DNA of 64,000 bases, from assembly GCF_000427685.1 (NCBI RefSeq), contig NZ_KE386573.1:1348938-1412937 (forward strand), written 5' to 3'. Within the stretch, counting starts at the first letter, position 1. Each line of letters opens with the position of its first letter. The translations under genes and the position numbers were made by a program. Under the pieces are notes generated by a model, which saw only the letters and a list, made by a program, of their open reading frames with translations, had not been told where the DNA came from and searched no databases. Source of the stretch: Haloplanus natans DSM 17983. GTDB taxonomy: Archaea; Halobacteriota; Halobacteria; Halobacteriales; Haloferacaceae. Positions 3,988-60,041 of this stretch are shown piece by piece.

Positions 3988-4166
3988 GGCCCGTCACCGT
4001 CCACCTGACTGTCCACGTCACCGTCCACTCGACTGTCCACGTCACCGTCCACTCGACTGTCCACGTCACCGTCCACCTGACTGTCCACGAACGGGACCGT
4101 CACTATCCGTGACGTGGTGGTTAGTCGAACGATACAACGAATCGGGTTGGTTCTATTGTCGGCCAT
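3984..4166 (-). CDS. 60-aa repeat protein coupled to the integrase
   Basis: Starts at ATG 4164-4166 and stops in the GTGA overlap with the integrase start. The N-terminal 27 residues (MADNRTNPIRCIVRLTT...) are basic; the C-terminal half is four copies of an acidic 8-residue unit VDSQVDGD/VDSRVDGD encoded by the 24-bp tandem repeat. It lies between the integrase and the attachment site. By position it could be an integration/excision accessory protein like the small partners of SNJ2-type integrases, or merely a leader frame for translational coupling. No domain is recognised. Confidence 0.5.
   Translation of the reverse strand: MADNRTNPIRCIVRLTTTSRIVTVPFVDSQVDGDVDSRVDGDVDSRVDGDVDSQVDGDGP
3995..4090. 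repeat. Four 24-bp tandem repeats before the integrase
   Basis: Units at 3995-4018, 4019-4042, 4043-4066 and 4067-4090. Units 1 and 4 carry CACCTGACTG and units 2 and 3 CACTCGACTG at the same place; the rest is identical apart from the last two bases. The unit is a multiple of three and encodes an 8-residue repeat on the minus strand. Located between integrase and attachment site, the units could also be arm-type integrase binding sites. Confidence 0.85.
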
Positions 4167-8989: not shown

Positions 8990-11677
8990 ATGGGAGCACG
9001 CACGACGCACCTCGACGTCACGGGGATGACCTGTGCCAACTGTTCGACGACGGTCGAGGACGCGCTGACGGCCCTCGACGGCGTGAGGGGCGCGACCGTC
9101 AACGCTGCCACCGACGGTGGGACCGTGGAGTACGATCCCGACGCGATCTCCCTTCGGGAGGTGGTCGACGCCATCGAAGACGCCGGCTACGGCGTAGTCA
9201 CGGAGACGGTGACGGTCGCAATCACCGACATGACGTGTGCGAACTGCGCGCGGACCAACGAGGTGGCGCTCGAATCGGTCCCGGGCGTCGTCGATGCGGA
9301 GGTGAACTACGCCACCGACGAGGCGCGGGTCACCTACCTCCCCCGGGACGCCTCGATCGACGCCCTGTACGACGCTGTCGAGGACGCGGGCTACTCGCCG
9401 GTCCGTGAGGAGAGCGACGGCACCGACGCCCGCGACGCCGCACGACGGGGCGAAATCCGCAAACAGCGTCGGCTGACACTGTTCGGCGCGGTGCTGGCGA
9501 CGCCGCTGCTTCTCGCCCTCGCCGAGAAGTTCCTGCTCGGCGGCGGCGTCTTCCCCGACCGAATCTTCGGCGTCACCGTCGGCTGGGTCATGTTCCTCCT
9601 CGCGACGCCGGTACAGGCCGTCCTCGGCCGGCCGTTCTACAGAAACGCCTACAAGGCCCTCGTGAAGAACCGCCGTGCCAACATGGACGTGCTCATCGCC
9701 CTCGGGTCGTCGACGGCCTACCTCTACTCCGTGGCCGTCCTCCTCGGCGCCGTCGCCGGGGGCCTCTATTTCGACACGGCGGCGCTCATCCTCGTGTTCA
9801 TCACGCTCGGCAACTACCTCGAAGCCCGGTCGAAAGGGCAGGCGGGCGAGGCGCTCCGGAAACTGCTGGAGATGGAAGCCGACACGGCAACTGTCGTCCG
9901 CGACGGGCGTGAGGAGGAGATTCCCCTCGAAGATGTCGAGGTAGGTGATCGGATGAAGGTCCGTCCCGGCGAGAAGGTGCCGACCGACGGCGTCGTCGTC
10001 TCCGGGCAGTCGGCGGTCGACGAGTCGATGGTGACCGGCGAGTCCGTCCCCGTCGAGAAGGGCGTGGGCGACGAGGTGATCGGCTCGACGATCAACGAGA
10101 ACGGCGTCCTCGTCGTCGAGGCGACGAAGGTGGGTGCGGACACGGCGCTCCAGAGCATCGTCCGGACGGTCAGCGAGGCCCAGTCCCGTCAGCCCGAGAT
10201 TCAGAACCTCGCCGACCGCATCTCCGCGTACTTCGTTCCCGCGGTCATCGCCAACGCCGTCGTCTGGGGCGTCGGCTGGTATCTCGCGCCCGAGACCCTC
10301 GCCGAGGCCGTCGCGTGGCTTCCGGTCTGGGGCCTCGTCGTGGGCGGCCCCGTCGTCGCCGGCGGCGCGGTGTCGACTTTCGAGTTCGCGGTGATCGTCT
10401 TCGCCTCCGCCGTCCTCATCGCCTGCCCCTGTGCGCTGGGACTCGCGACGCCGGCGGCGACGATGGTCGGGACGACCATCGGCGCACGACACGGTGTGCT
10501 GTTCAAAGGCGGCGACGTGCTCGAACGCGCGCGCGACGTGGACACGGTCGTCTTCGACAAGACGGGGACGCTGACCCAAGGCGAGATGGAACTGACCGAC
10601 GTGGTGGCGCTCGGGGAGGGGGCGCTCCCCGACGGCGGGCAGTTGAGACGCCCCGACAGCCGCACCGAAGACGACGTACTCCGCCTCGCCGCGACGGCGG
10701 AACGCGGGAGCGAACACCCCCTCGCTCGCGCTATCGTCGCCGGTGCCGAGGCCCGCGGGATCGAGGTGGGCGACGCCGACGGCTTCGAGAACGTTCCGGG
10801 CCACGGCGTGCGGGCGCGGATCGACGGAAGCGCACTTCCGGGGACGGGTGGTGACGGCCCCGTCGAGGTGCTCGTTGGCAACCGGAAGCTCCTCCGTGAC
10901 AACGGGATCGACCCCGCGCCCGCCGCCGACACGATGGAGCGACTGGAGCGTGAGGGAAAGACGGCGATGCTGGTGGGACGCGTGCCCGCCGGCACGGATG
11001 GCGTGCCCGCCGGCACGGATGGCGTGCCCGCCGGCACGGATGGCGTGCCCGCTGGCACGTTCGACGCCGACGGGGGCGAACTCCTCGGCATCGTCGCGAC
11101 CGCGGACACGGTCAAGGAGCGCGCGACCGAGGCCGTGAGCGGGCTCCGGGCGCGCGGACTGGACGTACTCCTGCTCACCGGGGACAACGAGCGCACCGCC
11201 CGCGCCGTCGCGGAGCGGGTCGGCATCGACCCCGCGAACGTCCGCGCCGGCGTGCTCCCCGAGGACAAATCCGACGCGGTCGAGGCGATCCAGTCGGAGG
11301 GACGGCGGGCGATGATGGTCGGCGACGGCGTCAACGACGCGCCCGCCCTCGCCGTCGCGTACGTGGGGTGTGCCATCGGTTCGGGGACGGACGTGGCCAT
11401 CGAGGCGGCGGACGTGACGCTGATGCGGGCCGACCCGCTGGACGTGGTGAAGGCGATCCGGATCTCCGAGGCGACGCTCGCGAAGATCAAGCAGAACCTC
11501 GTGTGGGCGCTCGGCTACAACACCGCAATGATTCCACTGGCGTCGCTCGGCCTGCTCCAACCCGCCCTCGCCGCGGGGGCGATGGCCATCTCCAGCGTCT
11601 CGGTGCTGACCAACAGCCTCCTGTTTCGCCGGTACGTGCCGGACCACGACTACGAACTCCTCGGACGGCTGCGCTGA
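8990..11677 (+). CDS. copA: Copper-exporting P1B-type ATPase
   Basis: About 895 residues. Two N-terminal heavy-metal-associated domains, each with MTCANC (near residues 13-18 and ~83-88), then eight membrane segments with the metal-transport CPC motif (ACPCALGLA, nt ~10420), the TGES actuator loop, phosphorylation site DKTGTLT (nt ~10556), the SEHP motif (nt ~10710) and hinge GDGVNDAP. These are the marks of Cu(I)-translocating ATPases that pump copper out of the cytosol. Start at ATG 8990 ([15 protein letters not shown]) is preferred to an in-frame GTG 24 nt upstream. The nucleotide-binding domain contains an in-frame heptapeptide repeat (see repeat). A TTTCG-AAT-CGAAA dyad upstream could be an operator; no copper regulator gene is adjacent. 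Confidence 0.93.
10980..11060. repeat. 21-bp tandem repeat inside copA
   Basis: Units at 10980-11000, 11001-11021 and 11022-11042 are identical (GCGTGCCCGCCGGCACGGATG core) and a fourth partial unit follows to 11060. They encode VPAGTDG three times plus VPAGT. The GTGCC/GGCAC arms within each unit are self-complementary. The repeat falls in a loop of the ATP-binding domain, so length changes would keep the frame. Confidence 0.9.
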
Positions 11678-56068: not shown

Positions 56069-56141
56069 CGACGCGGTGGGAATATTACCAGTGATTCCGC
56101 GATAAGAAGTATTATTTGTGACCGTTCCCTTCGTCGAGTTG

Positions 56142-56870
56142 ATGGTTACGGGTGGTGGGATGGGACCCGACGACGACGGCGTCAGCTTCGCCCACGCCCT
56201 GGCGACGCTGAAAGAGCAGGGTAGCGCGCTCCTCGTCGTGGGGTCAGTCCCCGAAGAGATGTTCGCAGACGCGTCAGCGACGATGCTGGGCGATCCGTCC
56301 GCCGACCCCCCGCGGCGGCGTCTCGTCGTGACGCCGGAACCGAATCGATCGAGCGCGATCCGTCGGCTCCGCGAGACCGGACCGCTCTCCTCGGAGTACG
56401 CCCGGCTCGTCACGCGCGGCGAGGAGGCACGCAGCGCCGCGGCCACCGAACGGTTGCTCGATCAGGCCAGACCACGAACGCACGTGATCGACGGATCGAT
56501 CCGCGATCTCGGCACCACGATCGGCGAGGTGATAGAGGAGTTCGACCTGTTCGCGGGCGGCCTCGACGCCGCCGAATTCCGGATGGCGTTCGACTGCCTG
56601 CCGACGCTCCTGTCGGCGTACGGCCGGGAGACGGCGTTCAGATTCCTGCACGCCGTCGTGGCACAGGCCCGCGCGGTGTCCGGACTCGTCCACTTCCGGC
56701 TCCCACGGCCGTTCGACTCCGAACTCGTCCGCCTGTTTCGGCCGCTGTTCGACGCGACGGTCGAACTCCGGATCGATGGCGAGAGCCTGGATCAACGGTG
56801 GCACTTCCGGGATCGGGAGCTCACGTCCGATTGGCTGCCGATCGATCGTCCGTCGGGACGGTCGGAATGA
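56142..56870 (+). CDS. DUF7504/MEDS-like protein (degenerate RecA-type fold)
   Basis: Start at ATG 56142, about 30 nt after the TATA-like TATTATTT (56108-56115), as for leaderless genes; GTG 56118 and ATG 56160 are alternatives. ~242 residues: FAHALATLKEQGSALLVVGSVPEEMFADASATMLGD, RRRLVVTPEPNRSSAIRRL, and IGEVIEEFDLFAGGLDAAEFRMAFDCLPTLLSAYGRETAFRFLHAVVAQARAVSGLVHFRLP match haloarchaeal DUF7504-type proteins, which look like ATP-binding-site-less RecA/MEDS folds. Role unknown; it precedes the CHAT gene by 50 nt in the same direction and may belong to that system. Confidence 0.75.
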   Translation: MVTGGGMGPDDDGVSFAHALATLKEQGSALLVVGSVPEEMFADASATMLGDPSADPPRRRLVVTPEPNRSSAIRRLRETGPLSSEYARLVTRGEEARSAAATERLLDQARPRTHVIDGSIRDLGTTIGEVIEEFDLFAGGLDAAEFRMAFDCLPTLLSAYGRETAFRFLHAVVAQARAVSGLVHFRLPRPFDSELVRLFRPLFDATVELRIDGESLDQRWHFRDRELTSDWLPIDRPSGRSE

Positions 56871-56920: not shown

Positions 56921-59044
56921 ATGAGTCGTACCGAGCGGCCGCGCGGGGACTCCTCCGAATCGGGGAGTGACGCCCTCGAAGTGTCGTTTTCGGTGCTCGA
57001 AGACGGAACGGGGCTGGTCGTGTCGGATCTGATCGAGCGCAACCAGTTCCGCCTGTTCACCGACTGCCCCGTCGCCCCGACACCGGCCGATCCGGACGGA
57101 CACCAGTTCCCCATCGACGCCGCGGTGGCGGTCGATGTCGCGGCGATCACGCTCCCGACGGTCGTCTCGGTCTGTGTCAGAAACGAGGCGGGCGATATGC
57201 TCGCCGAGACTGATCACTCCGCGTACGAGGAGTTTCCGCCCGGTAGTTACAGCCTCGAACTCTGTGGGCCGATCAAGATCTACCTCCGTGTCGACGGTTC
57301 GGTGACCGTCGCTTCGGACGTGGAGCGCACCCACATCGACTTCGACGGGGCTCGCGAGGTGCGTGTGGGCGCTCGATCCCACCACGAGGGGCCGGCGGCG
57401 ACGCTCACCACGACGGCGGACCCCGTCGACGTGATGGGTGCGGTGTCGGAGTTCTCCTCGGCGCTGAAGACCACGTCGCCCGAGCGGTCGTATCCGACGC
57501 TCCGGGGCCACCCGCCGCTCGTCGAACTCGGCGATCGGTTCGAGGTGCCGGACGGTGTCGTCTCCCCGGAGACGGGCATCAGGATCGAACTCCCGCCGGA
57601 GTACGAATCGATCTACGTGGCGGCGCCGCTCGCGTACTATCTCGCGGCCGACGTGGTGCCCGGCGACCGACCGCGACTCGTGACCGACGACGGCTTCGAA
57701 CACGATCTGGATACGGTTCGCGGGTTCGAGACGGAGGTCGAACGCGTCCTCAAACAGACGTTCTTCCTCGACTGTGTGACCCGGACGGAGGGGTACTACT
57801 CGGTCGACCTCCACGAACGGGAGGCGGTCGAAGCCGACCTCGACCTGGATTTCGAGTGGCTGTACGACCAGCCGCTTCGGACGCAGGTCGAGGAGTATCT
57901 CTCCCTCCCCTTCGGGACCGTCGAGGACGAACTCCCCGAGTGGCGGATGACCTCCCACGTCGCTCCCACCCCGGAGAACGTCGAACTCCTCCCGTTCGTC
58001 ACGAACGACCTCGCGGTGGTACGGACGCCACAGGACCAGCCCGAACCGAGTTCGGAAGTGCAGACGACGGCCGCGAGCGAGTTCTTCCGCGACGCCTCCT
58101 TCACCCGGAGCGCGTCGGCGGACGCGGCGGCCCGGTCGTACGTCCAGCCGGAGGCGACGGACTCGCTCGAACAGTCATGGATCGGCGACGGCGCCCCCAT
58201 CGGCGCCAGCAAGGCGACGACCAACGCCTTCTACAACCGCCTCGACCGGACGCCCACCGACGGCGACATCGGGATCACGGTGGTCTGTAACGACCCCCGC
58301 ATGGCCGATGAACGGGACGTGGTCGACGAGGTGTACGCCTCCAGCGAGGAACTCCCCTTCGACGTGCGCGTCCACCACGACCTGACGCGGGCGGAGCTTC
58401 GCGAGGTGCTCTCCGTCGACGCCGACCTCCTCCACTACATCGGTCACATCGACGGCGAGGGATTCGAGTGTGCGGACGGCAAACTCGACGCGACGACGCT
58501 CACGACGGCCGGTCCCGACGCCTTCCTGCTCAACGCCTGCCAGTCGTACGAACAGGGGTCGGCGCTGATCGACGCGGGCGCCATCGCCGGCATCGTCACG
58601 CTGTCGGACGTGATCAACAGCGGTGCGGTCCGGATGGGGCGGATGCTCGCCCGCTTGCTCGACCGCGGCTTCACCGTCGGGAGCGCCCTCGAAGTCGCTC
58701 GCGACGACTCGATCATCGGCGACCAGTACACCGTCATCGGTGACAGTAGCCTGTCGCTCGCCCGCACGGACGGCGGCCCGCCGAACGTCTGTGTCGTCCG
58801 GCGACGCGGCGGCGACGAGTTCGAACTGGAGTGGCAGAGCCACCCCTCTACCTCCTTCGGGATGGGAAGTCTCGTGATGCCGTTTCTCGACGACGTGGAC
58901 GAACATTACCTCTGGTCCGGCGAGGCTCGGACGTTCGACTTGACCCGCGAGGAGCTACAGCAGTTCCTTTCGCTGGAGACGGTACCGGTGAAAATCGACG
59001 GTTCGCTCGTCTGGAGCGACGAACTAGACTTCTCGAAGCTCTAG
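56921..59044 (+). CDS. CHAT-domain (caspase-like) protease with novel N-terminal region
   Basis: 707 residues, no signal or membrane helix. The C-terminal ~280 residues are a CHAT peptidase: catalytic His509 in LLHYIGHIDGEGF and Cys540 in AFLLNACQSYEQG, followed by GSALIDAGAIAGIVTLSDVINS and IGDQYTVIGDSSLSLAR. CHAT proteases (relatives of caspases and separase) cut specific partner proteins, often in defence or cell-death systems. The first ~360 residues are beta-rich (VSFSVLEDGTGLVV..., PGSYSLELCGPIKIYLRVDGSVTVASD) and unlike any sensor I know. A peptide gene with five identical repeats lies tail to tail with shared CTAG stop, a likely substrate. Promoter ACAATATCC about 35-40 nt before the ATG. 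Confidence 0.88.
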   Translation: MSRTERPRGDSSESGSDALEVSFSVLEDGTGLVVSDLIERNQFRLFTDCPVAPTPADPDGHQFPIDAAVAVDVAAITLPTVVSVCVRNEAGDMLAETDHSAYEEFPPGSYSLELCGPIKIYLRVDGSVTVASDVERTHIDFDGAREVRVGARSHHEGPAATLTTTADPVDVMGAVSEFSSALKTTSPERSYPTLRGHPPLVELGDRFEVPDGVVSPETGIRIELPPEYESIYVAAPLAYYLAADVVPGDRPRLVTDDGFEHDLDTVRGFETEVERVLKQTFFLDCVTRTEGYYSVDLHEREAVEADLDLDFEWLYDQPLRTQVEEYLSLPFGTVEDELPEWRMTSHVAPTPENVELLPFVTNDLAVVRTPQDQPEPSSEVQTTAASEFFRDASFTRSASADAAARSYVQPEATDSLEQSWIGDGAPIGASKATTNAFYNRLDRTPTDGDIGITVVCNDPRMADERDVVDEVYASSEELPFDVRVHHDLTRAELREVLSVDADLLHYIGHIDGEGFECADGKLDATTLTTAGPDAFLLNACQSYEQGSALIDAGAIAGIVTLSDVINSGAVRMGRMLARLLDRGFTVGSALEVARDDSIIGDQYTVIGDSSLSLARTDGGPPNVCVVRRRGGDEFELEWQSHPSTSFGMGSLVMPFLDDVDEHYLWSGEARTFDLTREELQQFLSLETVPVKIDGSLVWSDELDFSKL

Positions 59045-59295
59045 GGACCGGAGATACCGCTGCTGTTGCCGTCGGCGGTCATGGGGCCTGAAATGCCGGA
59101 GCTGTTGCCGTCGGCGGTCATGGGGCCTGAAATGCCGGAGCTGTTGCCGTCGGCGGTCATGGGGCCGGAGATACCGCTGCTGTTGCCGTCGGCGGTCATG
59201 GGGCCGGAGATACCGCTGCTGTTGCCGTCAGCGGTGTAGGAATCCGACTGCTCTTCGAGGGCCGTTACCATTGAATCGTTGTCACGTTCGGACAT
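59041..59295 (-). CDS. Small pentarepeat peptide facing the CHAT gene (candidate protease substrate)
   Basis: An 84-residue protein: 20-residue leader MSERDNDSMVTALEEQSDSY followed by five copies of TADGNSSGISGPM (the last lacks Met). All copies are identical in amino acids, but copies 3-4 differ from 1, 2 and 5 in several synonymous codons, so the peptide sequence is held by selection. No signal peptide, Cys or hydrophobic stretch; Gly/Ser-rich and flexible. It has its own strong promoter (TATA at 59320-59334) and its TAG shares CTAG with the CHAT stop. The acidic leader plus identical cores resembles multicore precursor peptides; cleavage by the CHAT protease is the leading hypothesis. Confidence 0.8.
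   Translation of the reverse strand: MSERDNDSMVTALEEQSDSYTADGNSSGISGPMTADGNSSGISGPMTADGNSSGISGPMTADGNSSGISGPMTADGNSSGISGP
59044..59235. repeat. Five 39-bp tandem repeats
   Basis: Coding repeats of the peptide gene (four of 39 bp, one of 36 bp). On the coding strand copies 1, 2 and 5 use AGCAGCGGTATCTCC where copies 3 and 4 use AGCTCCGGCATTTCA for the same SSGIS; copies 1 and 5 also carry single synonymous differences. Confidence 0.95.
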
Positions 59296-59319: not shown

Positions 59320-59334
59320 CAAAATATAATTTTT
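59320..59334 (-). promoter_or_regulatory. Strong promoter of the repeat-peptide gene in an A+T-rich island
   Basis: On the minus strand AAATTATATTTTG contains a TATA element about 30 nt before the ATG at 59293-59295. The surrounding 59320-59400 is the most A+T-rich segment of the window (ATATAAT, TTAAATATAATCAATTAAAG), in contrast to its G+C-rich surroundings. Confidence 0.65.
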
Positions 59335-59450
59335 CGAGAATATCTGATATTAAATATAATCAATTAAAGCAGTTGATCACTGACATAAAATGTCGGTGAA
59401 AAAGAACCGGCGGACGGGAGCGGGATAGAGCGAAACGGCCGGCCGTCCGG

Positions 59451-60041
59451 CTACTCGTTGCGGTCCGTGTCGTCGCGTTCGAGGTCCTGATAGATCAGGG
59501 TGAGGTCGTCGCTCTCGCTGAGTCGAGCGAGTTTGTCGTCGAGTTGGGTGCGAAGGTCGGTCAGATCCGCACAGAGCTGCCGATACTCCGAGCTAGCCTC
59601 GAGCGCGTTGGACTCTTTCTCGGATTCGAGGAGTGCCTTCTTCGAGGCGAGAGAAAAGAGGCGTTTGACGCCGTCACTGTACGCGTCCCGGATTCGGAGG
59701 TTCTCGACCATCCGGACGAGTTCCTCCTCGGACACCGGCTTGACGAGGTAGTCGTCGAACGCCATGTCGACGATGTCGGTGTCGGGTTCGACGGCGGTGA
59801 CCATCGCGACCCGGCAGTCGAACCCGCGCTCGCGGATTCGGTCGAGCACTTCGTCCCCCGAGAGGTCGGGCATCCGGCGGTCGAGCAACACGACGTCCAC
59901 CTCGTCGTCGAGTTCGTCGAGCGCCGCTCGGCCGTCCTCCGCCGTCCGAACTCGGTACGAGCCGGCGAGCCACGTCCGGTAGAGATCCGACAGGTCGCGT
60001 TCATCCTCGACGACGAGGACGAGGGGGGTGTCGTCGCTCAT
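59451..60041 (-). CDS. Response regulator with HalX domain
   Basis: Start at ATG 60039-60041 (MSDDTPLVLVVEDERDLSDLYRTWL). 196 residues: receiver domain (1-120) with the acidic pocket ED near 11-12, phospho-acceptor Asp in VVLLDRRMPDLSG, Thr in VTAVEPDTD and Lys in DDYLVKPVSEEEL, followed by a C-terminal HalX domain (RDAYSDGVKRLFSLASKKALLESEKESNALEASSEYRQLCADLTDLRTQLD), a haloarchaeal coiled-coil output module. No DNA-binding domain; output is probably by protein contact with a kinase or partner. It reads away from the CHAT/peptide locus and 155 nt separate its stop from the A+T island. Confidence 0.92.
   Translation of the reverse strand: MSDDTPLVLVVEDERDLSDLYRTWLAGSYRVRTAEDGRAALDELDDEVDVVLLDRRMPDLSGDEVLDRIRERGFDCRVAMVTAVEPDTDIVDMAFDDYLVKPVSEEELVRMVENLRIRDAYSDGVKRLFSLASKKALLESEKESNALEASSEYRQLCADLTDLRTQLDDKLARLSESDDLTLIYQDLERDDTDRNE

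Follow-up and report, generated by a model that had tools for sequence, protein, structure and literature searches.

CHAT-type protease genes of Halobacteria are mostly paired with convergent mini-protein genes, whose tail is tandemly repeated in most Haloplanus

Bacterial caspase-like proteases are known to cleave adjacent gasdermins. A CHAT peptidase with an adjacent dedicated partner has been described in type III-E CRISPR (Csx29-Csx30), where binding of Csx30 requires its C-terminal domain (PMC10028731). Tandem peptide precursors are likewise known: RRNPPA quorum-sensing propeptides can carry pheromones in one to four copies (PMC11343458). Extracts of Haloferax volcanii show strong caspase-like cleavage of LEVD, VEID and IETD that is inhibited by zVAD and for which no gene homologue was reported (PMC3615174). 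No description of the pairing of a CHAT-type protease with a mini-protein reported here was found in the open-access literature searched, which did not mention DUF7503, DUF7504 or their Pfam numbers and did not join the CHAT domain with Haloferax.

The window, a stretch of 64,000 nucleotides from Haloplanus natans DSM 17983, contains the two genes in convergent orientation (Table 1). An initial reading of the letters alone (the sequence-only reading) had described a 707-aa protein with a CHAT dyad converging, with CTAG stops, on an 84-aa protein made of a leader and five repeats, and the ORFs and the sequence bore this out. The small ORF runs from an ATG at 59295 to a stop at 59041-59043 on the minus strand, facing the CHAT ORF. 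The ATG agrees with the conserved MSE.. start of the homologues; an alternative TTG at 59322 would add nine residues. The product consists of the leader MSERDNDSMVTALEEQSDSY, four TADGNSSGISGPM units and a fifth unit, TADGNSSGISGP, which ends at GP and thus lacks the Met found elsewhere (TADGNSSGISGP(M)). Tandem repeat analysis (TRF) scored the array at 286, far above chance (39-nt period, 4.9 copies, 92% matches). Two further short tandem repeats were detected by TRF in other parts of the window, at 3992-4089 and 10980-11059 (24-nt and 21-nt periods).

Table 1. Features of the CHAT/tail-array locus, in positions of the window.
Feature	Position	Strand	Basis
DUF7504 gene, frequent upstream neighbour	56118..56870	+	Pfam E 1.5e-49
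CHAT-type (caspase-like) cysteine protease gene, 707 aa	56921..59044	+	ORF; Pfam CHAT E 2e-4; relatives in 365/391 Halobacteria genomes
Predicted catalytic His509 codon, motif HYIGH	58445..58447	+	kept in 177/178
Predicted catalytic Cys540 codon, motif LLNACQS	58538..58540	+	kept in 177/178
CTAG common to both stop codons	59041..59044		-3 offset seen again at other loci; genes 1-20 nt apart at many others
Tail-array gene, 84 aa, DUF7503-derived, lacking the hydrophobic segment	59041..59295	-	ORF, homologues; faces the CHAT gene convergently in Haloplanus
Unit 5 TADGNSSGISGP, free C-terminal Gly-Pro	59044..59079	-	sequence, TRF, codon analysis
Unit 4 TADGNSSGISGPM	59080..59118	-	sequence, TRF, codon analysis
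Unit 3 TADGNSSGISGPM	59119..59157	-	sequence, TRF, codon analysis
Unit 2 TADGNSSGISGPM	59158..59196	-	sequence, TRF, codon analysis
Unit 1 TADGNSSGISGPM	59197..59235	-	sequence, TRF, codon analysis
20-residue leader MSERDNDSMVTALEEQSDSY	59236..59295	-	sequence; start MSE.DSGTVA common to Haloplanus arrays and DUF7503
Conserved AT-rich promoter-like element TATCAGATATTCTCGAAAAATTATATTTTG (BRE/TATA-like)	59320..59349	-	before the small gene
HalX-type response regulator gene, frequent downstream neighbour	59451..60038	-	Pfam Response_reg and HalX

The match of the 707-aa protein to Pfam CHAT covers residues 455-603 and scores 21.3 bits. Scores for PF12770 ranged from 21.3 to 23.1 bits against a curated cut-off of 24, and the protein is therefore filed as CHAT-like rather than as a member of PF12770 by threshold. 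Seven of 55 relatives matched Pfam CHAT at E ≤ 0.01; at the same threshold these 55 proteins showed no TPR match, the only other match being one weak Peptidase_C25. Two plasmid relatives carry the annotation CHAT or caspase family, and in the close relative Haloplanus ruber the CHAT protein matches at 85%. Both members of the dyad, in GH and NACxS motifs, were conserved in 177 of 178 aligned relatives, the sole exception being a short divergent ORF (locus L099), and the family is accordingly predicted to be catalytic. AlphaFold models built from four sequences were poor (pLDDT 45-46). A fold search with the model of the CHAT domain (pLDDT 46) returned a SAVED-CHAT filament as the best PDB match (E 0.007) with caspases lower, which only hints at a CHAT or caspase fold; a fold search at full length gave no meaningful match, and single-sequence and profile searches of solved structures with the CHAT protein found nothing useful. 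No export signal was evident in the CHAT protein.

CHAT relatives were found in 365 of the 391 sampled Halobacteria genomes (93%), and were absent from viral contigs, which gives no link to phages. A large lineage expansion is seen in genomes G273, G124, G174 and G345, each of which gives 12-18 rows of family matches, partly from split genes. Outside the haloarchaea, relatives in another family of the phylum (L231-L234) adjoin acetyltransferase-like and UPF0146-like ORFs, as judged by eye, with no obvious mini-protein partner; the dyad motifs appear to be lost in L232.

The sequence-only reading had named conservation of the pair across genomes among its tests, and the pair was indeed conserved. 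In most relatives, the convergent position is occupied by a DUF7503 peptide of about 45 aa, consisting of a hydrophobic segment and a short tail. DUF7503 (PF24335) scored over its cut-off in 334 genomes (85%) and never in the 26 genomes that lack CHAT, which were identified from the listed genomes and include one (G001) with a sub-cut-off match only (Fisher p 5e-25, uncorrected for phylogeny). In 30 fully searched genomes, at least 90 of the 92 DUF7503 matches face a CHAT gene convergently, the two genes lying a median of 25 nt apart. A profile made from the locus peptides recognised a DUF7503-like peptide at 100 of 142 CHAT loci. A convergent ORF ending in Gly-Pro was present at 104 of 141 CHAT loci compared with 1/140, 1/141, 4/141, 1/141 and 1/142 in control windows, these pairing and Gly-Pro counts being uncorrected for shared ancestry. 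The pairing of the small gene with CHAT is real and haloarchaea-wide. H. volcanii has DUF7503 (a control match), and the CHAT/DUF7503 module is probably present there too. At locus L229 (genome G012), the partner has doubled independently: two tandem, near-identical DUF7503 genes lie beside a single CHAT gene.

Codon analysis supported translation of the small gene, on which the sequence-only reading depended. The five unit cores of the window are identical in protein and different in DNA; the nonzero pN of this array is due to two-step serine codon changes (AGC to TCC), not to protein differences. In the orthologous arrays L003, L004, L005 and L006, the 11-residue core ADGN..GISGP had a pN of 0 and a pS of 0.39, 0.21, 0.58 and 0.20, respectively. 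This identity of the cores despite differing DNA indicates that the gene is coding. In L005 all 13 units differ in DNA, which makes recent homogenisation less likely and points to selection acting on each unit. L002 has one real core replacement, AAGN, in its first unit.

Arrays were found in nine of 12 Haloplanus genomes, all without the hydrophobic segment and with 2 (L238), 4, 5, 7, 7, 10, 13, 14 and at least 9 units (the last interrupted by an assembly gap). A search of the class with the array protein gave clear matches in Haloplanus only, where they lay at the CHAT locus, and the remainder were at chance level. The other three Haloplanus genomes have ordinary DUF7503 (L007, L008 and L237). 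The arrays do not match the DUF7503 model, whereas L007, which occupies the same place, scores over the cut-off; the 17-aa Kyte-Doolittle maximum is -0.11 for the window array against a DUF7503 median of 1.73. The arrays nevertheless share with DUF7503 the convergent CHAT neighbour, the tail and the start, MSESDSGTVA being common to L004 (array) and L007 (DUF7503), and the first units of L002, L235 and L236 read AAGN, much as in DUF7503, in place of the ADGN of later units. The common start and AAGN first units mark the arrays as derivatives of DUF7503, and by sequence the repeats are a Haloplanus-only form of this known orphan family. On the tree, L237 and L004 group together, which leaves room for two origins of the array or for a single replacement. 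The expectation of repeat ORFs beside haloarchaeal CHAT genes thus held within Haloplanus and not as the general form, which is the single-tail DUF7503. Likewise, the proposal that the small protein is a substrate or multicore precursor gained partial support from the conserved pair, the selected small gene and the family-wide dyad, but its repeats proved to be a local form of DUF7503.

The feature common to these partners is the C-terminal tail. In divergent CHAT clades, many partners outside the DUF7503 profile still end in Gly-Pro, both membrane-type (L074, L075, L211, L213 and L218) and without a clear hydrophobic segment (L101, L102, L204-L207, L210, L214 and L217). Most partners have a single hydrophobic segment, but at no fewer than three separate places on the CHAT tree (FastTree, with long branches) it is absent and Gly-Pro is kept: the Haloplanus arrays; L134/L135/L140 beside L138/L144, with L134 borderline at 1.24 (17-residue Kyte-Doolittle); and an outer clade of L204-L217 with L101/L102, in which the segment may have been lost or may never have been present. 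The Gly, Pro and stop codons vary among loci, so the constraint acts on the protein. A DNA-level cause of the Gly-Pro end was ruled out by this variation and by most loci being non-overlapping.

The Gly-Pro end is not universal. Of 100 DUF7503-like tails at CHAT loci, 17 end otherwise, in ID, IR, GI, GT, TY and others, and in the L079-L095 group, comprising several divergent CHAT clades, no convincing adjacent GP peptide was found. Among the DUF7503 tails ending in TID, IR, GI or TTY are those of L109, L120, L153 and L154; L148, L151 and L152; L156, L169 and L180; and L176 and L182, and such endings are often common to related CHAT proteins. In DUF7503, conservation is strong in the hydrophobic body and exceeds that of the whole tail, and tails diverge faster; the body must therefore also matter in most species.

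The neighbourhood of the pair is less constant. Among 106 DUF7503- or array-linked CHAT loci, 48 have a DUF7504 gene upstream of CHAT, on its strand, and 31 have a gene for a HalX response regulator downstream, on the minus strand, so neither neighbour is obligatory. A block of the TATCAGATATTCTCGAAAAATTATATTTTG type precedes both arrays and DUF7503 genes in nearly identical form in Haloplanus and at L062; it can be recognised in other genera, and its sequence suggests promoter function. No PADLOC model was matched by the three proteins scanned (CHAT, array and DUF7504), and the defence role put forward in the sequence-only reading accordingly found no support.

These data suggest a haloarchaeal protease-and-partner module in which a caspase-like CHAT protein would act with a mini-protein dedicated to it, whose gene converges on the 3′ end of the CHAT gene. 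The recognised part would be a tail of about nine residues, usually ending in Gly-Pro (GNxxGISGP in the window). In most species the tail would be presented once, on a membrane peptide, behind the hydrophobic, signal-peptide-like segment of DUF7503; in Haloplanus, where this segment was lost and the tail multiplied 2-14 times, the product would be soluble and would offer a row of equivalent sites for docking or cleavage. We put the probability that the tail is what the CHAT protease directly recognises at about 0.6. The tail would bind in the CHAT substrate groove, and would then either be cut, within it or at its end, or regulate the protease; given direct recognition, cleavage and non-cleaved regulation appear about equally likely, and a bound tail might be a cut substrate, an inhibitor, an activator or, in the array, a means of clustering CHAT. 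Array-facing and single-tail-facing CHAT proteins differ consistently at three positions only (89, 146 and 639), which favours recognition of the common tail over a newly evolved processing site. Against this reading, forms resembling signal peptides would put their tail on the outside of the cell, yet CHAT shows no export signal, and both the non-GP endings and the CHAT clades without an adjacent GP peptide count against it.

The near identity of the two sorts of CHAT protein also weakens the idea that the array is a multicore precursor, cut by CHAT after Asp at [YFM][TN]AD|GN to free several peptides containing GNxxGISGP. In the six arrays first surveyed, the junctions were mostly YTAD (13), MTAD (10), MNAD (9), FTAD (5) and YNAD (3). 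These resemble caspase tetrapeptide sites, of which YVAD is one, and AD|GN of the arrays coincides with the signal-peptidase-like AA|GN of DUF7503. The zVAD-inhibited activity of H. volcanii extracts against LEVD, VEID and IETD fits such a cut as well (PMC3615174). However, the peptides faced by most family members have no Asp at the junction, no Asp-binding pocket was identified in CHAT, and internal products would keep four extra residues after GP. Processing of this kind appears unlikely.

A secreted propeptide would fit the build of DUF7503, a short precursor with a signal-peptide-like segment and an AxA site followed by a variable C-terminal tail. The C-terminal nonapeptide would then be a pheromone sensed by the cognate CHAT, as proposed by analogy with Rap-Phr and Rgg-SHP, and the array a multi-copy propeptide like the tandem RRNPPA precursors. 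Paralogous pairs within one genome mostly differ in their tails, as such signalling would predict, although these differences (n = 10 pairs) were not clearly unlike those of other pairs at similar CHAT distance, and a HalX response regulator often adjoins. Yet the hydrophobic segment, and with it any evident export, is missing from the arrays and from several further partners, and a protease whose dyad is intact would have to serve as the receptor, for which we know of no precedent. We regard secretion and sensing of the tail as rather improbable. A broader scheme, in which CHAT proteases are the sensors or processors of C-terminal tails in haloarchaeal peptide signalling, with a different tail for every paralogous pair, and also account for the unassigned caspase-like activity of haloarchaea, is improbable.

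The single hydrophobic segment of most partners would also suit a membrane-active peptide restrained by its tail and freed by CHAT cleavage, in the manner of gasdermins; with several separate lineages keeping the tail without the segment, and with arrays that hold nothing able to insert into a membrane, such effector release is very improbable. Scarcely any weight can be given to ribosome stalling at the Pro-stop end by an arrest peptide of the SecM type, whose known motifs a Gly-Pro end behind a signal-like segment resembles, given that no regulatable gene lies downstream (what follows is CHAT, encoded on the other strand), that 17/100 tails lack GP, and that many internal array units have no evident arrest role.

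Direct recognition of the tail thus remains the preferred reading, and the pairing supplies a partner for a protease family in 93%, and for the orphan peptide family DUF7503 in 85%, of sampled haloarchaeal genomes. Natural variation has performed the equivalent of a deletion experiment, in which the membrane segment was dispensable and the tail was retained, and contact between tail and protease is therefore directly testable.

Compared with its closest relative, DUF7503 (PF24335), the array has the same convergent position beside CHAT, the same N-terminus and, in Haloplanus relatives, an AAGN..GISGP-like tail; it differs in having no hydrophobic segment, in its mismatch to the model and in the repetition of the tail. 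The module resembles Csx29-Csx30 and the protease-gasdermin pairs in joining a caspase-like protease to an adjacent dedicated partner. Here, however, the partner is a mini-protein marked by its C-terminal tail and encoded convergently, there is no CRISPR or gasdermin, the family is widespread, and DUF7504 and HalX neighbours occur in a subset. In particular, the window partner is not a gasdermin, being 84 aa long and non-hydrophobic, with no Pfam gasdermin match at E ≤ 1. RRNPPA pairs also comprise a small precursor beside a cytoplasmic protein, with a variable C-terminal peptide and tandem copies in some, but in the haloarchaeal pairs a CHAT protease replaces the TPR receptor, the array lacks an export signal, the genes are convergent and the copies number up to 14 rather than one to four. 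The orphan activity of H. volcanii is, like this family, haloarchaeal and caspase-like, and differs in that the paper names no gene for it (PMC3615174); we propose the CHAT family as a candidate gene family for that activity.
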